A DNA stretch of 64,000 nucleotides from Dyadobacter fanqingshengii (GTDB lineage: Bacteria > Bacteroidota > Bacteroidia > Cytophagales > Spirosomataceae). Both the position numbers and the translations under genes were made by a program. Under the pieces are notes generated by a model, which was given only the letters and a program-made list of their open reading frames with translations, had not been told where the DNA came from and did no database searches. This document shows, in pieces, positions 1 to 10,913 of this stretch; within the stretch, counting starts at the first letter, position 1, and every line of letters begins with the position of its first letter. The stretch spans positions 6,136,501-6,200,500 of the forward strand of contig NZ_CP098806.1 in NCBI RefSeq assembly GCF_023822005.2, read 5' to 3'.

Positions 1-1
1 T

Positions 2-316
2 ATCCCGGACATTAACCAGATCCAGATCAAGATCAAAAGAGGACGTTTGTTGCCGACCGGAATTTTTAAACTCCTGTTTGGTAAAAAAAATATAACCCGC
101 ATCCGCGTACTCACATTGGGTGTAATTGAAGGATATCGCAAAATGGGCATTGAAGCCTGTTTATATGGCCATATCATTAAAAATACTTACGGTACAAAAG
201 TCACAGGTGGGGAATGTTCGTGGATGCTGGAAGAAAATTATCTGATGAACCACGCCATTGAGCAAATCAACGGAAAGCTGTACAAACGGTACAGATTGTT
301 GGAAAAGGCAATATGA
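2..316 (+). CDS. GNAT-fold acyltransferase, C-terminal fragment (bacterial ceramide synthase-like)
   Basis: Only the last ~104 residues lie in the window; the reading frame is open from base 2. The visible part looks like the acyl-CoA-binding half of a GNAT domain: a strand ending VLTLGVI, then a YRKMGIEA turn that resembles the GNAT pyrophosphate-binding loop, then a C-terminal segment with GGECSWML and KRYRLLEK. The stop overlaps the next gene by 4 bases (ATGA), so the two are translationally coupled. Known: bacterial ceramide synthase is a GNAT-type protein working with an SDR ceramide reductase. Inference: this gene N-acylates a sphingoid base, judged from its SDR partner and the lipid genes downstream. 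A generic N-acetyltransferase remains possible because the N-terminal half cannot be seen. Confidence 0.6.
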   Translation: MPDINQIQIKIKRGRLLPTGIFKLLFGKKNITRIRVLTLGVIEGYRKMGIEACLYGHIIKNTYGTKVTGGECSWMLEENYLMNHAIEQINGKLYKRYRLLEKAI

Positions 317-1338
317 AAGAGAAAGTATTCATAACGGGGGCCAGCGGTTTCATAGGTTTTCACCTGGTTGAAGCTGCACTGGAAGCAGGCATGGAAGTGC
401 ACGCAGCAGTAAGGCCTTCCAGCGACCTGACCTTTCTGAAAAAGCTGCAAAGCGATTTGGAAAAGAACGGAAAAGGCCCGCTGACGTTTGTGAATACCAA
501 TTTTGAGTCAAGGGATTCCTTGAAAGAATTACTGGAAAATGGAGGCTATTCCTACATTATCCATGCAGCAGGAGTGACGAAGGCGAAGAAAACGGCCGTT
601 TATAACAAAGTCAATGCAGAATATTCCCTGCATCTGGCGCAGGCCGCAATGTCAGCCAATATTCCTTTGAAGCGTTTTGTTTTTCTGAGCAGCCTGGCCG
701 CCATTGGCCCGCTTGCTTACGCTGAGCAACAGCTTATTACGGAGGATACATTACCCATTCCTGTGACCGATTATGGCAAAAGTAAATTGCTTGCCGAGCA
801 GTATCTCGAACAAGTAAGCGGCTTACCGCTCACCATTATCCGTCCGACTGCCGTTTATGGTCCCGGTGAAAAGGATTTGTTTATTCTTTTCAAAACACTG
901 AACAAAGGATTGGATGCATACATAGGCAAAGGCCCGCAACGGCTGAGCTTCGTTTATGTGAAAGATCTTGTGGCCGCCACAATGGCCGCAATGCTGGAAA
1001 GCCAGCGCGAAACCTCAGTATACAATATTTCCGACGGACAAGCCTACGACCGTTACGCATTCGCCGACCGGTTCCGGGAAATCAGTGGTAAAAACATATT
1101 CAGGGCACATTTACCTTTGTTTTTGGTGAGGTTCATGGCAGGGTTCCTGGATTTTATATATGGATTTACTTCCGTAACCCCGGTTTTGAATAAGGAAAAA
1201 CTGAAAGAGCTCACAGCTTCCAACTGGATCTGCAGCATAGAGGCAGCCAGAAACAGCCTGCACTATACACCGCAATACGACTTGCGACAGGGCATGCAGG
1301 AGACCTTAATTTGGTACAAAGAAAATAAGTGGCTGTAA
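313..1338 (+). CDS. NAD(P)-dependent epimerase/dehydratase family protein (ceramide reductase-like)
   Basis: This is a 341-residue extended short-chain dehydrogenase. The N-terminal Rossmann glycine motif is TGASGFIG (about residues 8-15). The active site shows a Ser in FLSSLAAIG and the Tyr/Lys pair in DYGKSKLLAEQ, followed by the RPTAVYGPG segment typical of extended SDRs. The C-terminal part is less conserved and would hold the substrate. It starts inside the stop of the GNAT gene. Known: in bacterial sphingolipid synthesis a protein annotated as an NAD-dependent epimerase (CerR) reduces the keto group of the ceramide intermediate. The coupling to a GNAT gene and the lipid head-group genes nearby favour that role here; a nucleotide-sugar epimerase is the alternative. 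Confidence 0.75.
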   Translation: MKEKVFITGASGFIGFHLVEAALEAGMEVHAAVRPSSDLTFLKKLQSDLEKNGKGPLTFVNTNFESRDSLKELLENGGYSYIIHAAGVTKAKKTAVYNKVNAEYSLHLAQAAMSANIPLKRFVFLSSLAAIGPLAYAEQQLITEDTLPIPVTDYGKSKLLAEQYLEQVSGLPLTIIRPTAVYGPGEKDLFILFKTLNKGLDAYIGKGPQRLSFVYVKDLVAATMAAMLESQRETSVYNISDGQAYDRYAFADRFREISGKNIFRAHLPLFLVRFMAGFLDFIYGFTSVTPVLNKEKLKELTASNWICSIEAARNSLHYTPQYDLRQGMQETLIWYKENKWL

Positions 1339-1431
1339 AGTAAAGCCATTCCCGATGGAGCACCAAGCGTAGCGCCAGGGTAAAGCACCCCCGCGAGGGA
1401 AACATGAAAAATAACGTTATGAAGTTCAACA

Positions 1432-3999
1432 ATGAAAACAATAAATAAGTCGGTATGGTTAAAACTTTTCCTGGTTATCTGTCTTGCACAGACCTTTTCC
1501 GGAACAGCCATAGCGCAAAGCACCACAATTAAAGGAACCGTCACCGACGCAAAAACAGGCGAAACATTGCCTTTCGTGTCCGTCCTGATCCCGGGAACAA
1601 CCATGGGAACAGCTTCCGACGCAGACGGAAAATATGCGATGACATTGCGTGAAGATTACAAAACCGTAAAATTCACATACGTAGGATATCTCAGCATTGA
1701 AAAACCCATCACACCCGGCATTGATCAGGTGATCAATGTGAAAATGGCGGTGGATGCTTCCATGTTGAAAGAAGTGACCATTAAGGGAAGGGGACGTTAC
1801 AGAAACAAAGACAATCCTGCCGTTCAACTGATCCGTGAGGTGATTGCGCACAAGGACCAGAACAAGATGGCCGCCAGCGACTTTGTTGAGTACGAGCAAT
1901 ATGAAAAAATCTCGTTTGCACTGAGCAACCTGTCAGACAATTTCAAGGAGAAGCGCATTTTCAAGAATTACCAATTCCTTTTTGAGGATCAGGATTCGAC
2001 GGCAATGGGTGGCAAGAATATGTTGCCTGCTTACATTCAGGAAAAGCTATCGCAGGTTTATTTCCGCAAAAACCCTTATACCAAAAAACAATGGGTGCTG
2101 GCCAACAGAAGAGCGGAATTTGACTCAAAATTTGTTGATAATGATGGTCTGAGTGCTTATTTCAACAGGTTATACGAAGATGTAAATCTTTACGAAAATG
2201 ACATTTCAATTGCTACAAACCTGTTATTAAGCCCTATCGCGAATTCCGCGCCGACATTCTACAAGTTCTTCATTCGCGATACGATCAAGACAGAAACGCC
2301 GTGGCTGGTTGAATTGGGTTTTGTGCCGAGAAATAAAACAGACATGCTTTTCGAAGGTAAGCTGTTTATCACATTGGACGGAAATTATGGAGTTCAAAAT
2401 GCCTATCTGACTGTCAACAAAGACATTAACCTCAATTTCATGCGTGACCTCGAAGCGCGTCTGGAATATGAAAAAGGACCGGACGGGCGCTATCACCCGA
2501 CCAAGACGACACTGGGAATGGAGTTCGCCCTGGGCGAGAAGAATGCAGGTTTTTACGGTCAGCGTGTGGTAAATTTCAAAAACTACACCATTAACCAAAG
2601 TCGGCCCGACAGCGTTTACAGTGGGCCAAGAGAAGAAGTTGCTTTCAATCCGAGTACAAATTCGGGTGAAGCATTCTGGGCTGGCGCGCGGCACTTGCCT
2701 CTGGAAAAAATGGAGCTGAATATTTACAGAAATGTGGATACGCTGCAGACCATTCCGTCATTCCGCAGGACTATGGACATTGCCACGCTTTTCTTGTCCG
2801 GTTATAAATCGTTTGGAAAAGTGGAAGTAGGACCGGTGAACACGTTTTACAGTTTCAACCCGGTCGAAGGTTTCAGGCTGCGTTTTGGCGGACGGACTAC
2901 AACGGATTTCAGCAAGCGCTTCTATCTGGAAACTTATGCGGCTTACGGTTTCAAAGACCAGAGATGGAAGTATTTTTTGAGCGGCACTTATTCATTCAAT
3001 AACAAATCCGTTTACCACTTTCCTCTGAATTACATCCGCGCCAGTTACCAGCGTGATACCAAGATCCCGGGACAGGATTTGCAGTTTGTGCAAGAAGATA
3101 ACTTCCTTTTATCATTCAAAAGAGGCGATAACAACCGCTGGCTTTACAATGATGTATACAAGCTGGAATATGTCCGCGAGTTCGAAAGCCGCTTTTCTTA
3201 TAAGATCGGTTTTACGAACTGGAGACAAACACCCGCCGGGATTCTGCGATACGAAAAGCTTGATAGTGAAGGCGTTTTAGAGAATGTAGGCGGCCTGAGC
3301 AACACAGAAGCAAACCTGGAACTGCGCTATGCACCGCATGAGCAATATTATCAGGGAAAACTGTATCGGACGCCGATCATTAACAAATATCCGATTTTCA
3401 CATTGCGCTATAATGCAGGTTTGAAAGGTGTTTTTGAAGGGCAAAACCGTTATCACAACGTTTCAGCTAACATTGCCAAGCGTGTTTACCTGTCGCAGTT
3501 TGGTTATGCGGACGTCACGGCTGAGGGAAATTACATTTTCGGAAGCAACGTGCTGTTCCCGCTGCTGTCCATCCACCGCGCCAACCAGACTTACGCTTAC
3601 CAGCTCAACAGCTATAACCTGATGAACTTCCTGGAATTTGTGAGTGATCATTATGCCAGCCTGGACGTGCAGTATTACATGAACGGATTCATTTTTAATA
3701 AAATACCACTGTTGAAAAAACTGAAACTGAGAGAAGTTTTCAGCTTCAAAGGGTTGATGGGCGGACTTAGGGATGAGAACAATCCTACAAACAATCCCGG
3801 ACTCTTCCGCTTTCCGGTGGATGAGAACGGTAAGCCGATCAGCTATACATTGTCGCGCGAACCTTACATTGAGGGAAGCGTCGGCGTAGCGAATATTTTC
3901 AAGCTGCTAAGAGTCGATCTCGTGAAACGTTTTACTTATCTGGACAACCCGAATGTTTCGGAATGGGGGATAAGAGCGCGGTTCCGGCTTGATTTTTAA
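1432..3999 (+). CDS. DUF5686/carboxypeptidase-regulatory-like outer-membrane protein
   Basis: This 855-residue exported protein begins with a signal peptide ending near TAIAQ (residue 29). A CarboxypepD_reg-like beta-sandwich follows (about residues 32-115; GTVTDAKTGETLPFVSV and GTASDADGKYAM). The remainder is long, aromatic-rich and beta-strand-like, and ends in phenylalanine (RARFRLDF), as outer-membrane barrels do. This matches the Bacteroidota DUF5686 family, whose molecular role is not established. No TonB plug motif is apparent, so it is not a normal SusC receptor. Its position between the sphingolipid-like SDR and the head-group genes suggests, as inference only, a role in placing a lipid or surface polymer in the outer membrane. 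The 93-bp gap before it has no clear terminator. Confidence 0.8.
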   Translation: MKTINKSVWLKLFLVICLAQTFSGTAIAQSTTIKGTVTDAKTGETLPFVSVLIPGTTMGTASDADGKYAMTLREDYKTVKFTYVGYLSIEKPITPGIDQVINVKMAVDASMLKEVTIKGRGRYRNKDNPAVQLIREVIAHKDQNKMAASDFVEYEQYEKISFALSNLSDNFKEKRIFKNYQFLFEDQDSTAMGGKNMLPAYIQEKLSQVYFRKNPYTKKQWVLANRRAEFDSKFVDNDGLSAYFNRLYEDVNLYENDISIATNLLLSPIANSAPTFYKFFIRDTIKTETPWLVELGFVPRNKTDMLFEGKLFITLDGNYGVQNAYLTVNKDINLNFMRDLEARLEYEKGPDGRYHPTKTTLGMEFALGEKNAGFYGQRVVNFKNYTINQSRPDSVYSGPREEVAFNPSTNSGEAFWAGARHLPLEKMELNIYRNVDTLQTIPSFRRTMDIATLFLSGYKSFGKVEVGPVNTFYSFNPVEGFRLRFGGRTTTDFSKRFYLETYAAYGFKDQRWKYFLSGTYSFNNKSVYHFPLNYIRASYQRDTKIPGQDLQFVQEDNFLLSFKRGDNNRWLYNDVYKLEYVREFESRFSYKIGFTNWRQTPAGILRYEKLDSEGVLENVGGLSNTEANLELRYAPHEQYYQGKLYRTPIINKYPIFTLRYNAGLKGVFEGQNRYHNVSANIAKRVYLSQFGYADVTAEGNYIFGSNVLFPLLSIHRANQTYAYQLNSYNLMNFLEFVSDHYASLDVQYYMNGFIFNKIPLLKKLKLREVFSFKGLMGGLRDENNPTNNPGLFRFPVDENGKPISYTLSREPYIEGSVGVANIFKLLRVDLVKRFTYLDNPNVSEWGIRARFRLDF

Positions 4000-4030
4000 G
4001 GAGGACAAAAAAATACGACACCAATTATAT

Positions 4031-4744
4031 ATGAATTACGCAATTATAGCGGCCGGAGAAGGATCACGTTTGGCAAAGGAGGGCTTTCCGCTTCCCAAAC
4101 CAATGGTGACACTTTATGGAGAAATGCTGATAGACAGGCTGATAGGGATCTTTATGCGCAACAAGGCGGAAAAGATCATGATCATTATCAACGAAGAGTC
4201 AGCCGCCCTGGAAAGTCACTTGTCCGAACTGAGCCTGACATTGCCGATTCAGATCGTGAAAAAATCAACACCGAGTTCGCTGCATAGCGTTTTCGAACTG
4301 CTGGGAAGCGATCCGGAACTGGAAGCCATTTGCCTGACAACAACAGACACGGTTTTTAAAGAAGACGAATTCACCGCCTACATTCAGGAGTTCGCAGGCA
4401 GTAAAGAACTGGGCGGCCTTATGGCGGTAACAAGCTTCATAGACGACGAAAGCCCGTTATATGTAACAGTGGACCATGCGGCGAACATTACCGCATTCAC
4501 GGATACAAACACAACGCAAACCACGTTCGTTTCTGGCGGAATCTATTGCCTCAGAAAAGAAGCTATTGCGCTGGTAAGCGAGGCCGTAAACAATGGTGTA
4601 AGCCGGATGCGCAATTTTCAGCGCCAGTTGCTGGAAAGTGGCATTCATCTGAAAGCTTATCCGTTCTCGAAAATTGTGGATGTAGACCACGTGCAGGATA
4701 TTAAAACAGCCGAGCTTTTTTTAAGCCCCGAAACTGCTGTTTGA
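4031..4744 (+). CDS. Sugar/alditol-phosphate nucleotidyltransferase (NTP transferase family)
   Basis: This 237-residue protein is a single nucleotidyltransferase fold. The N-terminal nucleotide-binding signature is IIAAGEGSRLAKEG (residues ~4-17), followed by PKPMVTLYGEMLIDR, the usual lysine-containing NTP-transferase motif. TTTDTVF (~residues 98-104) fits the metal-binding Asp region, and VDVDHVQDI near the end supplies the second metal-binding segment. I chose the ATG at 4031 because the conserved fold begins at once; an upstream extension gives non-homologous residues. Known: related enzymes include CTP:inositol-1-phosphate cytidylyltransferases that feed CDP-alcohol transferases. With such a transferase two genes downstream, the product is probably a CDP-activated polar head group. 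The substrate cannot be read from sequence. Confidence 0.75.
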   Translation: MNYAIIAAGEGSRLAKEGFPLPKPMVTLYGEMLIDRLIGIFMRNKAEKIMIIINEESAALESHLSELSLTLPIQIVKKSTPSSLHSVFELLGSDPELEAICLTTTDTVFKEDEFTAYIQEFAGSKELGGLMAVTSFIDDESPLYVTVDHAANITAFTDTNTTQTTFVSGGIYCLRKEAIALVSEAVNNGVSRMRNFQRQLLESGIHLKAYPFSKIVDVDHVQDIKTAELFLSPETAV

Positions 4745-4808
4745 TTTAAAATATATTGAGTAACAGACACCAAATAAAGGCAGGAGCATATTATCTGCCG
4801 CAGCGTAA

Positions 4809-5678
4809 ATGAGTGAATTAAACATTTTAGGCGTTCCCAGGAACCGCAAGTTCTCGCCTAACCACATTGGAAATGATGATGCGATTTTTTCTTTGACAGC
4901 AAAGGAATTAGAGAAAATGGGATGCAAAGTGCGGATCAGTTTTGAAGACGATTTTTTACAAAACGAAAACATTACCGAGCAAAAGATCTTCACAATGGCC
5001 CGCCAGAAAGAAGTAGTCAAAAAACTGCAGGCTTTGGAAGAAAATGGTGCACAGGTTATTAACTCAGCATTTGGCATCGAAAATTGCTTTCGGACGAACC
5101 TGACCAACGCATTGAACCTGAACAACATTCCGGTCGCCGAAAGTTACATTGTGCCAACGGACTATCTGGGTGACGAGGTTTTTGATGCAATTACCGGTAA
5201 AGGTTATTGGATTAAAAGGGGCGATTTTCACGCTATTCACAAGGAAGACGTGTCATTCGCAGCGTCGCGTGAGGAGGCCAGGGAAATTTTGCGGGAATAT
5301 GCATTGCGTGATATACCCGATGCCGTGATCAGTAAACATTTGATCGGCGACCTGGTGAAATTTTATGGCGTGCGCGGAACAGACTTTTTCTTTTGGTTTT
5401 ATCCATATGATAACAACCATCATAAATACGTTGAATATCAAAACATTAACGGCAATTCGGCTTACTATGCTTTCGATGCAGATAAATTGAAAAACGTCGC
5501 AACAGAAGCGGCGGGAGTGGTTGGAATAGATGTTTACGGCGGTGACGCCATTATCGGCAAAGACGGCAGTTTCGGCATTATTGATTTAAATGACTGGCCC
5601 AGTTTCGCGCCATGCCGTGATCAGGCCGCAGGCCACATTGCCCGTATGATTTACGAGAAATTTACAAAAAGCAATTAA
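4809..5678 (+). CDS. ATP-grasp family enzyme in the lipid head-group cluster
   Basis: This 289-residue protein has the look of an ATP-grasp ligase or kinase. The central part carries a lysine strand (GYWIKRGDFHAIH, ~residues 132-144), then ISKHLIGDLVKFYGVRG, and a C-terminal metal site with GGDAIIGKDGSFGIIDLNDWPS, where the acidic residues and the Asn of DLND would hold Mg-ATP. The family ranges from amino-acid ligases such as RimK to inositol-polyphosphate kinases of the ITPK type, so either ligation or phosphorylation is possible. The stop shares its last base with the start of the CDP-alcohol transferase gene, which argues for a shared pathway. No standard phosphatidylinositol pathway I know includes an ATP-grasp step. 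The reaction is unknown. Confidence 0.7.
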   Translation: MSELNILGVPRNRKFSPNHIGNDDAIFSLTAKELEKMGCKVRISFEDDFLQNENITEQKIFTMARQKEVVKKLQALEENGAQVINSAFGIENCFRTNLTNALNLNNIPVAESYIVPTDYLGDEVFDAITGKGYWIKRGDFHAIHKEDVSFAASREEAREILREYALRDIPDAVISKHLIGDLVKFYGVRGTDFFFWFYPYDNNHHKYVEYQNINGNSAYYAFDADKLKNVATEAAGVVGIDVYGGDAIIGKDGSFGIIDLNDWPSFAPCRDQAAGHIARMIYEKFTKSN

Positions 5679-6649
5679 TGGATCCAGTTAGAAAGCGCCC
5701 CGAAACGACCAATACTGAACCTGAACTTTCAGCATTTGAAAGTTCGCTGAAATCCAATGATACGGAAGAGCAGATCGACATTTGGTTTTACCGGCCCATT
5801 GGGTATCAGATTGCATTGTTTTGTGCCAAAATAGGGTTAAGGCCCAATCCGGTGACCATTATCAGCATTTTCTTCGGCGTCGCGGCCGGGATCCTGTTTT
5901 ATTATCAGGAGCTATGGATCAATGTGATCGGGATGTTGCTGCTGGTTTTTGCCAATTCGCTGGACAGCGCGGACGGTCAGCTGGCGCGGATGACGAATGA
6001 CAAGAGCCGGTTAGGACGGATTTTGGATGGTGCTGCGGGTGATTTCTGGTTTATTGCCATTCACATTGCGATCTGCCTCAGGAGCATGAACGAGGGTTGG
6101 AGCGCGTGGATCTGGGTGCCGGGTGTGCTCGCAGGAGCGTCGCACGTGGTGCAGTCGGCGATGGCTGATTATTACCGGAATGTGCATTTGTTTTTTATCA
6201 AAGGAACTTCGGGAAGCGAGCTGGACAACAGCCGCGACTTGCAGGCTGAATATGACAACCTAAGTTGGAAATCGGATTTTGGAATGAAATTCATCGCCCG
6301 CACTTATCTGAACTATACTAAGTTACAGGAAAGCTTTTCACCGCAATTGCAGAAGTTGCTAAGCCTGGTTCGTGAAAAATATAAAACAGGTTTGCCGAAA
6401 GATCTGGTCACCGATTTTAGGGCGCATAACAAGCCATTGATGAAGTATACCAATATTGTCCAGTTCAATACAAGGGTGCTATTCCTGTTTCTTTGGCTGT
6501 TTTTGGACCAATCTTGGATTTATTTCTTCTTCGATATGTTTGTTCTTAACCCCATCCTGATCTACATGATCGTGAACCAGGAAAAGGTGAGCCGTTATTT
6601 TTATCAAAAGATTTTGACTGAAAAAACGAATGAATTCCAAGGCGTATAA
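5678..6649 (+). CDS. CDP-alcohol phosphatidyltransferase family membrane protein
   Basis: This 323-residue integral membrane enzyme is expected to transfer a phospho-alcohol between a CDP-activated donor and an alcohol acceptor. The signature is D96-x2-D99-G100-x2-A103-R104-x8-G113-x3-D117, matching the family, but the last Asp is at 122 instead of 121 (LDGAAGD), one residue beyond the textbook spacing. Hydrophobic segments lie near residues 58-92, 125-165 and 265-305. A long polar N-terminus (~35 residues) and a soluble stretch around 185-255 are larger than in minimal family members. It overlaps the ATP-grasp gene by one base and the next gene by 20 bases. Together with the nucleotidyltransferase it could condense a CDP-head group directly with diacylglycerol or ceramide. 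Confidence 0.85.
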   Translation: MDPVRKRPETTNTEPELSAFESSLKSNDTEEQIDIWFYRPIGYQIALFCAKIGLRPNPVTIISIFFGVAAGILFYYQELWINVIGMLLLVFANSLDSADGQLARMTNDKSRLGRILDGAAGDFWFIAIHIAICLRSMNEGWSAWIWVPGVLAGASHVVQSAMADYYRNVHLFFIKGTSGSELDNSRDLQAEYDNLSWKSDFGMKFIARTYLNYTKLQESFSPQLQKLLSLVREKYKTGLPKDLVTDFRAHNKPLMKYTNIVQFNTRVLFLFLWLFLDQSWIYFFFDMFVLNPILIYMIVNQEKVSRYFYQKILTEKTNEFQGV

Positions 6650-7643
6650 AGCCCTTTTCATGGCCATAGGCATTCTGTCGCTAGGATATATGATCTATGG
6701 CACGGGGCCGCTTGTGATTTGGGAAAACATTAACAGGACAGGCATCTGGTTTATCCCGGTCATCGGGAGCTGGCTGGTAATTTACGTCCTGAATGCGCTT
6801 GCTTTCCGGTCGATTATCCGGGAGCCGAATTTGCCTGAAAGCAATCTTTCATTTTGGTCTGTCTTGAAGCTGACCATCTCGGGATATGCGATCAATTACA
6901 TTACGCCGTTTGTCGCGTTAGGCGGCGAGCCTTACCGGATATTGGAACTGAAACCCGCATTAGGAATCCAGAAAGCCACATCTTCGGTGCTGCTTTACAG
7001 CCTAATGCATATGTTTTCGCACGTTATTTTCTGGCTGGCTTCTATCGTTTTGATCGTCGCCGTGGTGCCATTGAATAATGTAATGCTGGCGGGTTGCGGG
7101 ATTCTATTGGTTACGGGGCTGGTTTTAGGATATTGGTTTATCAATGTTTATAAAAAAGGTTTTACCGTAAGCACATTCCGCCTTTTGGAAAAGATCCCTT
7201 TTATAAAAACCAAAGCCAGGGCATTTGCACTAAAAAACTCAGAAACATTATACGAGGTAGACGACCAGATCCGCATTTTATATGCCGAAAGGAGAAACAT
7301 TTTTTACTTGTCGTTGTTCTATGAATTCACCGCAAGGGTCATTGGTTGCGCAGAGATCTTTTTCACCGCTCACGCCATTGGTTTAGGAATGTCCTTGTCG
7401 GAATCGCTGATCATCAGTTCGGGATCGTCGCTCTTTGCCAACCTGATTTTCTTTTTCCCGATGCAATTGGGCACAAGGGAAGGCGGACTTGCACTTGCAT
7501 TAAGCAGCGTGGGTTTCGCAGCATCACAAGGCATCTTCATCGGGATCGTGATGCGGATCCGGGAAATTTTCTGGATCATCGTTGGTTTAGCGTTGATGAG
7601 TAAAAAGGTGAAGGTAAAGGAAGAAGCCGTTTTGGCTGATTAG
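6630..7643 (+). CDS. Lysylphosphatidylglycerol synthase TM-region/UPF0104-type membrane protein (flippase-like)
   Basis: This 337-residue polytopic protein has roughly eight hydrophobic segments and the layout of the UPF0104/AglD/LPG-synthase transmembrane family: a first helix from residue 5, an ITPFVALGGEPYR segment (~residues 90-102) and a late FFPMQLGTREGG motif (~residues 275-286), both of which are typical. The soluble aminoacyl-transfer domain of MprF is absent, so it cannot make lysyl-phosphatidylglycerol by itself. Related membrane-only proteins act or are proposed to act in lipid translocation. It begins 20 bases inside the CDP-alcohol transferase gene, so coupled translation is likely. 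I infer that it flips or presents the lipid made by its neighbours. Confidence 0.8.
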   Translation: MNSKAYKALFMAIGILSLGYMIYGTGPLVIWENINRTGIWFIPVIGSWLVIYVLNALAFRSIIREPNLPESNLSFWSVLKLTISGYAINYITPFVALGGEPYRILELKPALGIQKATSSVLLYSLMHMFSHVIFWLASIVLIVAVVPLNNVMLAGCGILLVTGLVLGYWFINVYKKGFTVSTFRLLEKIPFIKTKARAFALKNSETLYEVDDQIRILYAERRNIFYLSLFYEFTARVIGCAEIFFTAHAIGLGMSLSESLIISSGSSLFANLIFFFPMQLGTREGGLALALSSVGFAASQGIFIGIVMRIREIFWIIVGLALMSKKVKVKEEAVLAD

Positions 7644-7738
7644 ATTGCCTGGTGGCAATCACCTATCAGCGAGATTTTGACTTAATATTTTTGAATTCAA
7701 TAAAGGCCGGAAGCTGCATGCGGAAAGCCGAAGCGCGT

Positions 7739-8452
7739 ATGATTAAAGGAATTTTATTTGATTACGGTGGTACGATCGATACCAACGGCCTGCATTGGGC
7801 TAATGTTTTGTGGGAAAGTTACCAGCGTAACCAGGTAAATGTGGATCGGGACGCATTTGCAGAGGCATACAAATACGGCGAGAGAGCTCTGGCAATCAAA
7901 CCGATCATTGAACCGCATCACGTATTCTATGACGTTTTGTTTTTAAAAGTTGAACAGCAATTCAGCTTTTTGCGAGAAAAGGGATTTGAATTAAATGATG
8001 GGGCCATTGAGGCGATAGCCAGCGAATGTAACCGTTTTGCACACACTACTGTTGAAAAAGCCGCGCCTGTTTTGGCACAACTGGCGCAAAAATACCCGCT
8101 CGTGATGGTTTCCAATTTTTACGGAAACATCAATCATGTTCTGCAGGATTTCGGCATTGCACATTATTTCCAGGCTGTTGTTGAATCTGCCGTTGTTGGC
8201 GTCCGGAAGCCCAACCCGCAAATTTATCAGCTCGGAATTGATAAGCTGGCGCTGCCTCCTCAGGAATGTGTCGTGATCGGGGATTCGTATTCCAAGGATA
8301 TTCAGCCGGCCAGGTCATTAGGCTGCAAAACAATCTGGCTGAATGTGAAAGGATGGGATGAAGCCGATGATTCGAATTTGAAAGTTTCGGAGGCGGATGT
8401 TGAGATTACCGATTTTGCCCAAATAGCGGACACAATTACAATTTGGGGTTAG
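7739..8452 (+). CDS. HAD-superfamily (subfamily IA) hydrolase, likely phosphatase
   Basis: This 237-residue protein shows all four HAD motifs: motif I FDYGGTID at the N-terminus (nucleophile Asp), motif II VSNFYGN, motif III lysine in VGVRKPNP, and motif IV GDSYSKDIQPARS. The second acidic residue of the usual DxD is Gly (DYG), a variation seen in other HAD-IA members such as YihX, so it does not rule out catalysis. An alpha-helical cap lies between motifs I and II. I chose the ATG at 7739 because the HAD strand follows directly; the frame extends upstream to 7652 without recognisable homology. Setting suggests dephosphorylation of a head-group phosphate or lipid intermediate; the substrate is unknown. 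Confidence 0.8.
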   Translation: MIKGILFDYGGTIDTNGLHWANVLWESYQRNQVNVDRDAFAEAYKYGERALAIKPIIEPHHVFYDVLFLKVEQQFSFLREKGFELNDGAIEAIASECNRFAHTTVEKAAPVLAQLAQKYPLVMVSNFYGNINHVLQDFGIAHYFQAVVESAVVGVRKPNPQIYQLGIDKLALPPQECVVIGDSYSKDIQPARSLGCKTIWLNVKGWDEADDSNLKVSEADVEITDFAQIADTITIWG

Positions 8453-8504
8453 TTGTCAACTTTTATCGGGCACCGACACAAGCCTTGATAAAATTAAATT
8501 GAAA

Positions 8505-9419
8505 ATGAAGATGTACGACATTTGTACCATAGGGCACATTACTTTGGATAAAGTGGTAACTGCCCAGTCTGTCAAATACATGCCCGGCGGCACGTCGTTC
8601 TACTTTTCGAAGGCGCTCAGGCACTTTGATGTGGACTACATGCTGGTGACGGCGCTGGCAGAAAAAGAAAACCATATCGTATCCGCATTGAGAGACGAAA
8701 ACATTCAGGTCTTCTCGCAACCGAGCGAACACACTGTTTACTTCGAAAATATCTACAGTGCCAATCAGGATCACCGCGAGCAGAATGTGCTGCACAAAGC
8801 CGCCCCGTTCACCACCGCGCAAATGCCTGACATTGAGTCGCGGATATTTCATTTGGGTCCTTTGCTTTCCGATGATATTTCTGTGGATCTGTTGAAATCG
8901 CTGGCTCAAAAGGGAACGGTTTCACTGGATATTCAGGGTTATCTGAGATATGTAAAAGACCGGAAGGTTTTGTATAAAGACTGGGCCGACAAAAAAGAAG
9001 CGCTTCCGCATGTTTCGATCCTCAAAGCCAATGAGTTTGAAATGGAAGTGGTGACAGGCACCAGCGACGTGCGCAAGGGCGCCGAATATCTGGCGGACCT
9101 TGGTGTAAAAGAAGTAATTATCACACTGGGCAGTAAAGGCTCACTGATCTATAAAGACAATGATTTTTTCAGGATTCCAGCTTATAAGCCAACGGCGATC
9201 GTGGATGCGACCGGCTGCGGTGACACCTATATGGCGGGTTATCTGAGTAAAAAAATTCAGGGAGCTGATATCCAGGAAGCGGGTGAATTCGGAGCAGCTA
9301 TGGCTACTTTGAAAATACAATCGTCCGGACCATTTTCGGGAAATGCCGCAATGGTTGAAGAAGTGCTCCAATATGGTGAATGTGACCGCGAAATGATTGC
9401 CCAGGCAATTTATCAATAG
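8505..9419 (+). CDS. PfkB-family carbohydrate/cyclitol kinase
   Basis: This 304-residue kinase has a ribokinase-like fold. Near the N-terminus is GHITLDKVV and the substrate-lid glycine motif PGGTSFYFSKAL; the C-terminal signature DATGCGDTYMAGY supplies the anion hole and the catalytic Asp (the usual GAGD is GCGD here). LGSKGSLIY is the ATP-binding strand. ATG codons at 8505 and 8511 are both plausible, and a TTG lies two codons upstream. Known: PfkB members include myo-inositol kinases as well as sugar and nucleoside kinases. The neighbouring nucleotidyltransferase needs a phosphorylated alcohol, so a kinase for the free head group fits. Direct proof of an inositol substrate is not visible. 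Confidence 0.8.
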   Translation: MKMYDICTIGHITLDKVVTAQSVKYMPGGTSFYFSKALRHFDVDYMLVTALAEKENHIVSALRDENIQVFSQPSEHTVYFENIYSANQDHREQNVLHKAAPFTTAQMPDIESRIFHLGPLLSDDISVDLLKSLAQKGTVSLDIQGYLRYVKDRKVLYKDWADKKEALPHVSILKANEFEMEVVTGTSDVRKGAEYLADLGVKEVIITLGSKGSLIYKDNDFFRIPAYKPTAIVDATGCGDTYMAGYLSKKIQGADIQEAGEFGAAMATLKIQSSGPFSGNAAMVEEVLQYGECDREMIAQAIYQ

Positions 9420-9434
9420 TACTCAACAATAGTC

Positions 9435-10007
9435 ATGAAAAACGCAGTTAGTATAATGCTGGCTTTTAGCCTGCTGCTGTGTTCGTATTCAGTAAGTCAT
9501 TCTGCTCATGAAATTTCAAAGGTTTCCGCTAGCGAACCCGATGAGTTTCCAGTACCAAAGAATATCCCCGGATTACTTTTCTACATTCAGCGTGACCCCA
9601 ATGCGAATACCATTATTTATCACCTTAACATGGACGAACAGGGCCGGTTAAGTCAGAAGAACCCTGTCGACGCGTTCTGGATCAGATATACCGATGGAGG
9701 CGAGAAGAGGGATCTCAATTACCTGCAGAGAAAGTTTGCTTACGGGATTAACTCCAAGTCCATCGGAAATTCCACCTACGAACTACGGTCGGTTGCATAC
9801 TCGAAAATGCCGCTCTATCTGCGGAAGGACAGCAAGAATGAGTATCATGTTTATGCGAATATAAATAAGAAGGAGTGCATCCTGAGCCGGGTTTTTATCC
9901 ATATCGACGGTGGGACGTTCTGGTCTCCCAATGTAGTTTATATTGAACTGAAAGGAACTGAAACGGCTACCGGGAAAACTGTGGTGCAGCGGATTAAACC
10001 GGTTTAA
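9435..10007 (+). CDS. DUF4833 exported protein
   Basis: This 190-residue protein has a hydrophobic signal segment (residues ~5-25, cleavage probably near SHSAHE) and then a domain beginning FPVPKNIPGLLFYIQRDPN, which I recognise as the DUF4833 pattern; VDAFWIRY, YAYGI-like and HIDGGTFW segments are further hallmarks. No catalytic motif is evident. It follows the PfkB gene by 15 bases and closes the run of tightly spaced lipid genes, so it is probably co-transcribed. Its place suggests a periplasmic accessory role in lipid or envelope handling, which is inference. A 159-bp gap then separates it from cmoA. Confidence 0.75.
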   Translation: MKNAVSIMLAFSLLLCSYSVSHSAHEISKVSASEPDEFPVPKNIPGLLFYIQRDPNANTIIYHLNMDEQGRLSQKNPVDAFWIRYTDGGEKRDLNYLQRKFAYGINSKSIGNSTYELRSVAYSKMPLYLRKDSKNEYHVYANINKKECILSRVFIHIDGGTFWSPNVVYIELKGTETATGKTVVQRIKPV

Positions 10008-10166: not shown

Positions 10167-10913
10167 ATGACAGAGACACCGCAACCCGAACAGGACAATG
10201 TTTTCAAAGATGAAATTACCAAAGTGTCGGATTTTAAATTCGGGACAACAGTTGTAAAAGTTTTTGACGACATGGTCAGCAGATCAGTCCCGTTTTACAA
10301 CGAAATGCAGCGCATGCTGGGAGAAATTGCGGCGGATCACGTCAGGGAAGGAAGTTTTGTATATGATTTGGGATGCTCCACGGGCACCACAATGATCGAG
10401 ATAGACAAGCTCATCCCGTCGGATATCCGGTTCATCGGGATCGACGAGTCGACCGAAATGCTTGACAAATGTGATGTGAAGTTAAAGGAAGCAGGTTTTG
10501 TGCGTCCATACGAACTCGTTACGGGCGATTTGCACGAGAAGCTGCCGATCAAGAATGCTTCCGTTGTGATCCTTTGCCTGACATTGCAATTTGTAAGGCC
10601 ACTTTACAGAGAGCGGTTACTGCGCAATATTTACGAAGGGCTTAACCCCGGAGGTGTGCTGTTGCTGGTCGAAAAAGTGCTGGCAGAAAGCACCGTTTTC
10701 AATCGTGATTTTATCAAATATTATTACAATTATAAGCGCCGTAACCATTATAGCGAGATGGAAATTTCGCAGAAACGGGAGGCCCTGGAAAACGTTCTCA
10801 TTCCATATAAGCTATCTGAAAATCTGCTTTTATTGAAAGAAACGGGCTTTGGAGATTGTGAAACTTTCTTCAAATGGTATAATTTTTCAGGTCTAATCGC
10901 TTATAAAAAATGA
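10167..10913 (+). CDS. cmoA: Carboxy-S-adenosyl-L-methionine synthase
   Basis: This 248-residue SAM-fold enzyme closely follows CmoA over its length: SVPFYNEM near residue 34, motif I VYDLGCSTGTT (~residues 68-78), GIDESTEMLDKC, the LTLQFVRPLYRE region, and YSEMEISQKREALENVL, which is nearly the E. coli sequence. CmoA converts SAM and prephenate to carboxy-SAM, used by CmoB to make the wobble-uridine modification cmo5U. CmoB is not present in this window; instead the stop overlaps the start of an isoprenylcysteine-methyltransferase-like membrane protein (ATGATG). Either CmoB is elsewhere or carboxy-SAM has another use here. An ordinary methyltransferase is the less likely alternative. Confidence 0.85.
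   Translation: MTETPQPEQDNVFKDEITKVSDFKFGTTVVKVFDDMVSRSVPFYNEMQRMLGEIAADHVREGSFVYDLGCSTGTTMIEIDKLIPSDIRFIGIDESTEMLDKCDVKLKEAGFVRPYELVTGDLHEKLPIKNASVVILCLTLQFVRPLYRERLLRNIYEGLNPGGVLLLVEKVLAESTVFNRDFIKYYYNYKRRNHYSEMEISQKREALENVLIPYKLSENLLLLKETGFGDCETFFKWYNFSGLIAYKK

Follow-up and report, generated by a model that had tools for sequence, protein, structure and literature searches.

A conserved gene row in Dyadobacter fanqingshengii joins putative ceramide-building genes to a predicted CDP-inositol route and an ATP-grasp enzyme

A CDP-inositol route in Bacteroidota has been predicted and, according to a 2023 review, is not yet fully characterized. Heaver et al. proposed it in 2022 for Prevotella and Bacteroides vulgatus as an alternative inositol-lipid cluster, which the authors called unconfirmed (PMC9246714). 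A bacterial ceramide pathway, Spt-bCerS-CerR, has been described in Caulobacter (PMC11087976), where CDP-activated sphingolipid head groups are also known through CpgD and ceramide diphosphoglycerate (CPG2) (PMC12275187, PMC13228409). Here, we analyzed a 64,000-nucleotide stretch of the 6.27-Mb genome of the soil bacterium Dyadobacter fanqingshengii (G000:C1:6136501-6200500, hereafter the window) together with 11 kb around its left edge (locus L002, G000:C1:6126501-6137500, with L002:10001 being window base 1). The window starts inside a row of 11 genes, all on the plus strand, encoding in this order serine palmitoyltransferase (SPT), a GNAT acyltransferase resembling bacterial ceramide synthase (bCerS), a short-chain dehydrogenase/reductase (SDR), a DUF5686 protein, a nucleotidyltransferase (NTP transferase), an ATP-grasp enzyme, a CDP-alcohol transferase, a flippase-like protein, a haloacid dehalogenase-family (HAD) phosphatase, a PfkB-family kinase, and a DUF4833 protein (Table 1). 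Judged from sequence and predicted structure, this row probably makes and exports an inositol-bearing sphingophospholipid via the PfkB kinase, CDP-inositol, and transfer to ceramide.

The row shares with the cluster of Heaver et al. the NTP transferase, the CDP-alcohol transferase, and the HAD enzyme, as well as the LPG-synthase-type (PF03706) and carboxypeptidase-regulatory-like (PF13715/DUF5686) neighbors. The Prevotella nigrescens copy (L124) matches the window at 36% for the ATP-grasp protein and 40% for the CDP-alcohol transferase. Unlike that cluster, the window row is joined with the SPT, GNAT, and SDR genes, has a PfkB gene inside it, and contains no inositol-3-phosphate synthase (MIPS) gene. 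The Dyadobacter locus links the CDP-inositol route genetically to ceramide synthesis and offers a kinase-fed, MIPS-free version of it. The published three-enzyme scheme also omits a fourth enzyme, the ATP-grasp protein. Of 14 sampled genomes with a close relative of the window CDP-alcohol transferase, 12 had this fourth enzyme; the main text of Heaver et al., which was searched without its supplements, does not mention "ATP-grasp" (PMC9246714). As for Caulobacter, SPT, a GNAT acyltransferase, and an SDR are shared, being consecutive genes in Dyadobacter, whereas the Caulobacter CerR is described as periplasmic and the head group there is phosphoglycerate (PMC11087976). CpgD, which has the same fold and uses CTP, is likewise a nucleotidyltransferase that activates a sphingolipid phospho-head-group, and its closest structural relative, as for the window enzyme (see below), is the inositol-1-phosphate cytidylyltransferase (IPCT) of Thermotoga maritima (PMC12275187, PMC13228409). 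In contrast to the CPG2 pathway, however, the window row lacks a ceramide-kinase-type gene, and its NTP transferase showed no BLASTP similarity to the nucleotidyltransferase of a CPG2-like Roseomonas cluster (E 0.92). As far as our searches of the open-access literature show, five things are new: a conserved row that unites ceramide genes and the CDP-inositol route, a version of the route that lacks MIPS and includes a predicted inositol kinase, the ATP-grasp member, the displaced catalytic Asp, and the amino-inositol-type variants.

The conservation of the row was examined in 64 named loci retrieved with the ATP-grasp protein as the query, in which the presence of that protein is by construction, but gene order and neighbors are not. 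Some of the fetched loci were short, so that a neighbor missing from them means little, and here as in the other genome samples, related species are included and the counts are not independent events. An SPT gene was found in 36 loci. All 11 genes were present in the same order and on the same strand in 34 of these, a linkage beyond chance, and the other 2 ran into a contig end. The full rows came from Dyadobacter (among them a D. fermentans strain, L021), Rhabdobacter, Runella, and Larkinella; the closest named relatives were Dyadobacter, with an ATP-grasp protein 97% identical to that of D. psychrophilus. Across the 64 loci, matches to the NTP transferase were found in all, to the CDP-alcohol transferase in 62, to the HAD enzyme in 59, and to the LPG_synthase_TM protein in 46. 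The two loci without a CDP-alcohol transferase were L052, with an open reading frame of a BACON-domain protein in its place, and L068, in which the contig ends nearby. Genes overlap by 4 bp at both the SPT/GNAT and the GNAT/SDR junctions, and the row appears operon-like. A sequence-only reading of the window had described the order, strand, overlaps, and families of its genes, including translational coupling of the GNAT and SDR genes, and our analysis bore this out: NTP_transferase, CDP-OH_P_transf, LPG_synthase_TM, HAD, and PfkB all exceeded the Pfam gathering cut-offs. Its gene list had passed over the ATP-grasp, DUF5686, and DUF4833 genes.

Just upstream of base 1, where an SPT gene had been anticipated, such a gene lies directly before the GNAT gene. 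Its product scored 628 bits against the Sphingobacterium-type SPT (3a2b, 8guh) versus 229 bits against cysteate acyltransferase, being closer to SPT than to cysteate acyltransferase or 8-amino-7-oxononanoate synthase. The GNAT protein had been likened to ceramide synthase from its C-terminal part; at full length, it is 33% identical over 373 amino acids (aa) to a Roseomonas protein in the CPG2-like cluster, which is flanked by lipid head-group genes, although this reference is not a verified bCerS. On the Roseomonas plasmid (L123:1743-10868), the GNAT homologue, annotated as a dATP pyrophosphohydrolase, overlaps a nucleotidyltransferase gene, and the neighbors encode a sterol desaturase, LptF/G, a CDP-alcohol transferase, an acylglycerol-kinase-family protein, and a metallophosphoesterase.

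One link to inositol came from the distribution of MIPS. In a phylum sample of 296 genomes, MIPS (PF01658) was found in 48 and strong ATP-grasp matches, with five weak ones excluded, in 12. MIPS was present in 10 of these 12 versus 48 of 296 overall (hypergeometric p 2.7e-7, relatedness ignored). Those 10 genomes had 11 clusters; in 10 of these, the MIPS and ATP-grasp genes were separated by 1.9 to 6.7 kb, and for the eleventh, MIPS was on another contig. The P. nigrescens record, for instance, is annotated with an NDP-sugar synthase, a hypothetical protein (the ATP-grasp enzyme), a CDP-alcohol transferase, a HAD protein, inositol-3-phosphate synthase, and DUF5686, and DUF5686 lies near some of the MIPS-linked cassettes. 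Both of the ATP-grasp genomes that lacked MIPS are from the family of the window organism, where the row includes PfkB. Among 150 genomes of that family, ATP-grasp was found in 29, MIPS in 16, and both in 7; in 6 of the 7, the genes were on different contigs, and in the remaining one, they were 4.9 Mb apart. MIPS was not found in the window genome with either PF01658 or PF07994. Within the fetched DNA of the named loci, it was found in none of the 36 SPT-linked loci versus 12 of the 28 others. In a survey of inositol catabolism, Dyadobacter is one of the genera listed as having clusters of genes for it (PMC9430895), which would be in keeping with import as the inositol source.

The best PDB match of the window PfkB protein was TM0415 of T. 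maritima, with 110 bits over most of its length, the next protein scoring 57. TM0415 phosphorylates myo-inositol with pyrophosphate (PPi) (PMC5931981), and its inositol contacts D11, N78, Q141, and R145 correspond to D17, N84, Q146, and R150 of the window protein. These four residues were invariant in all 37 PfkB rows compared (36 named loci with a PfkB match plus the window), and the set was kept in none of the 9 aligned PfkB paralogues of the same genome (a tenth match, below the cut-off, was left out). The two proteins share the ribokinase fold, near full-length similarity, the inositol contacts, and the catalytic Asp, but the PPi determinants of TM0415 are mostly lost: K171 is kept, whereas F221 is replaced by Y, R229 by A, R232 by C, and M266 by I. 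ATP is therefore the likely donor. Another difference is that S89 of TM0415 is Q in the window protein, one of two changes associated in homologue No. 7 with the formation of a different product from Ins(1)P (PMC5931981).

The NTP transferase was modeled with a mean predicted local distance difference test score (pLDDT) of 93, and its top Foldseek match was the T. maritima IPCT. Its catalytic residues R13, K23, and D106, mapped by motif and spacing, were invariant in 24 of 24 rows. The model for IPCT and di-myo-inositol phosphate phosphate synthase (DIPPS) matched all 24 aligned NTP transferases with the lowest best E value among the families shown, all matches being below the cut-off. We consider this protein a candidate CTP:inositol-phosphate cytidylyltransferase. 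Together with the MIPS linkage in relatives and the inositol-site residues of PfkB, the Foldseek match lends support at the sequence level to inositol as the alcohol, as the sequence-only reading had suggested. The CDP-alcohol transferase, one of only two in the whole genome, matched PF01066 with 44.4 bits (gathering cut-off, 22). The motif D-x2-D-G-x2-A-R-x8-G-x3-D was invariant in 23 of 23 rows; the fourth Asp, expected four residues after the third, was replaced by Gly in 22 and Ser in 1, and the residue one step further was Asp in 20 rows and otherwise Ser, Asn, or Glu. Two loci with close relatives of this transferase, L128 and L129 (G030 and G135), had no recognized NTP transferase or ATP-grasp gene in the fetched stretch.

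The ATP-grasp protein belongs to no Pfam family, and its AlphaFold model (pLDDT 92) has a RimK/LysX-like fold. The metal motif D-x-N was present in 24 of 24 members, and it also occurs in three alignments of inositol phosphate kinases of the ITPK type, as opposed to the E-x-N of the ligases ArgX and PsnB. In a profile search, ITPKs accounted for 6 of the 8 PDB sequences at E ≤ 0.01, four of these being inositol-tetrakisphosphate 1-kinase entries. The enzyme thus shares with ITPK the ATP-grasp fold and the motif D-x-N-x-x-P-[SG]-[FY]. Whole-sequence likeness to ITPK is marginal, however, with a best E of 8e-5 built from weak separate stretches; PF05770 matched 3 of the 24 members, with a best E of 0.03 and none above the gathering cut-off, and the fold comparison slightly favored RimK-type ligases. 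In one locus, the NTP transferase and the ATP-grasp protein are fused in a single 513-aa reading frame (L067:9299-10837), a hint that the two work together.

The reactions that follow, with their acceptor, the direction of transport, and the substrate and chemistry of the ATP-grasp enzyme, are predicted from gene content, order, and conservation, the absence of MIPS, active-site residues, and folds. SPT, the GNAT protein, and the SDR would form dihydroceramide, while PfkB would use ATP to phosphorylate scavenged myo-inositol, replacing MIPS. The NTP transferase would convert inositol phosphate and CTP to CDP-inositol, from which the membrane CDP-alcohol transferase would pass phosphoinositol to a lipid hydroxyl. 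Since the first genes of the row itself would make ceramide, ceramide is the likely acceptor, giving inositol-phosphoceramide. The LPG_synthase_TM protein may flip the lipid product, and DUF5686 (MlaFED in some relatives) may assist its transfer to the outer membrane. The sequence evidence partly supports the route assumed by the sequence-only reading, with an alcohol activated as CDP-alcohol and transferred directly to ceramide or diacylglycerol; that route was incomplete in leaving out the ATP-grasp enzyme. This enzyme would have inositol phosphate or CDP-inositol as its point of action and would most likely be a second kinase, similar to ITPK; the HAD enzyme could remove the phosphate that it adds. 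We tentatively suggest, as a more specific and rather doubtful version, that the ATP-grasp protein is an ITPK-like inositol-phosphate kinase within a sphingolipid operon. The pathway would then pass through an inositol with two phosphates, formed by PfkB or MIPS together with the ATP-grasp enzyme, and this inositol would be activated with CTP and put on ceramide; the HAD enzyme would afterwards trim it, or it would stay as part of a phosphoinositide-like sphingolipid. Elsewhere, amino-inositol lipids would be the product of clusters that combine an IolG-like dehydrogenase with a class III aminotransferase, MlaFED, and sometimes a second ATP-grasp gene. If the ATP-grasp protein is such a kinase, bacteria would have their own phosphoinositide-like chemistry on sphingolipids.

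Several observations weigh against an inositol-phosphoceramide made in this way, and most of them bear on other readings of the row. The identity of the head group is one such point. NTP transferases of this fold take many substrates and PfkB enzymes phosphorylate many sugars. VIA-align put sugar nucleotidyltransferases equally near to the window NTP transferase, several of them outranked IPCT in the PDB profile search, and the window protein scored higher with a sugar-nucleotidyltransferase model than with the IPCT/DIPPS model. The Km of TM0415 for inositol is 12 mM, and its authors suggest that the true acceptor may differ (PMC5931981), a caution that extends to the window PfkB. PfkB also does not strictly take the place of MIPS: a Phocaeicola barnesiae locus (L060) has both. 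The head group could accordingly be another polyol or a sugar, such as glycerate as in CPG2 of Caulobacter or a hexose, with the MIPS links stemming from a different pathway. The proximity of MIPS (no more than 7 kb away for 10 of the 11 clusters), the invariance of all four inositol contacts in PfkB, and the lack of BLASTP similarity to the Roseomonas nucleotidyltransferase make this unlikely. The characterized proteins nearest to both enzymes include IPCT and DIPP synthase, so a soluble inositol solute like the di-myo-inositol phosphate of thermophiles might be the product instead of a lipid; we regard this as very improbable, because SPT and the ceramide genes share one row with a flippase-like protein and because MlaFED lipid transport is encoded in 8 of the 11 distant clusters.

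The acceptor and the role of the ATP-grasp enzyme leave more room for doubt. In the other 28 loci, which hold the cassette but are not SPT-linked, the fetched DNA of up to approximately 10 kb on each side gave no SPT match above 40 bits. This would agree with the CDP-alcohol transferase making phosphatidylinositol on diacylglycerol, as the route was drawn by Heaver et al. (PMC9246714), and with a later exchange, by the HAD enzyme, that moves the head group to ceramide to give phosphatidylinositol-dihydroceramide. Such an order is possible but not the one we favor, as three ceramide genes open the row in SPT-linked loci, the HAD enzyme is of the soluble phosphatase type and not a PAP2/AUR1-type transferase, and an AUR1-type PAP2_3 domain was not found above the cut-off in the genome. 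The slightly better fold match to RimK-type enzymes is what a carboxylate-amine (or carboxylate-hydroxyl) ligase would give, in which case the ATP-grasp protein would add an amino acid to inositol and the final product would be an aminoacyl-inositol lipid. This, too, is a minority possibility in our view; the D-x-N motif of all 24 members is that of the three ITPKs and unlike the E-x-N of ArgX and PsnB, and the window row has no aminotransferase, hence no amine supplied there.

Variant clusters were found in distant lineages, in a set of 11 clusters from 10 genomes. Pfam or NCBIfam models gave the gene families of L131 and L132, and in the remaining clusters, families were called from their resemblance to L131. 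Lipid-transport genes of the MlaE-MlaF-MlaD type were present in 8 of the 11, and an IolG-like dehydrogenase (with the IolG model far below its cut-off) together with a class III aminotransferase in 7. Aminocyclitol antibiotics contain amino-inositols made by a dehydrogenase and an aminotransferase. Because this is the same pair of enzymes, the clusters that have both may, by analogy, make amino-inositol lipids. The elaborated clusters with MlaEFD, the aminotransferase, and the dehydrogenase were L131, L132, L135, L136, L137, L139, and L140, and two tandem ATP-grasp genes were seen in 4 of the 11 (L131, L132, L135, and L137). One genome, G031, holds both a plain (L141) and an elaborated (L131) cluster. 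On a Desulfobacterales contig (L068:6601-11313), the NTP transferase and ATP-grasp genes form an overlapping row with HAD and class III aminotransferase genes, preceded by genes for an SDR and a radical SAM/DUF3463 protein; its product is likely different.

Table 1. Positions of the genes and motifs of the row (window positions unless a locus or contig is given)
Feature	Position	Strand	Remark
SPT gene, 401 aa	L002:7993-9198 = G000:C1:6134493-6135698	+	outside the window, just before the GNAT gene
GNAT acyltransferase like bCerS, 373 aa	L002:9195-10316 = G000:C1:6135695-6136816	+	
GNAT C-terminal 104 codons	2..316	+	part of the GNAT gene inside the window
Extended SDR, candidate ceramide (3-keto) reductase	313..1338	+	family by Pfam; role by neighborhood only
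CarboxypepD_reg_2 + DUF5686 outer-membrane-type protein	1432..3999	+	Pfam
NTP transferase, candidate CTP:inositol-phosphate cytidylyltransferase	4031..4744	+	ATG 4031 favored by alignment; listed ORF begins at TTG 3989
ATP-grasp enzyme without Pfam family	4809..5678	+	ITPK-like D-x-N-D-W-P-S-F metal motif
CDP-alcohol phosphotransferase	5678..6649	+	fourth catalytic Asp absent at usual spacing
CDP-alcohol transferase motif with displaced fourth Asp	5963-6043		
LPG_synthase_TM/HpnL-like membrane protein, candidate lipid flippase	6630..7643	+	HpnL model below cut-off
HAD-family phosphatase	7739..8452	+	domain begins just past ATG 7739; listed ORF from GTG 7652
PfkB/ribokinase-family kinase, candidate ATP-dependent inositol kinase	8499..9419	+	listed start TTG 8499; ATG 8505 or 8511 may be the true start
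DUF4833 protein, hydrophobic N terminus	9435..10007	+	last gene of the conserved row

Elsewhere in the same genome, a separate gene (L144:1408-2679, G000:C1 about 5341312) encodes a cysteate acyltransferase-like protein, with 559 bits against Cysteate-C-fatty acyltransferase and 225 against SPT. Because of this gene, the strain may also make sulfonolipids; in a study from 2012 of a signaling sulfonolipid, Dyadobacter fermentans is marked with a plus in the table of tested bacteria (PMC3463246). Directly after the row, at window positions 10167-10913, lies a gene for a CmoA-type carboxy-SAM synthase (TIGR00740, above the cut-off), which was also present in 27 of the 64 named loci and is probably unrelated to the row.

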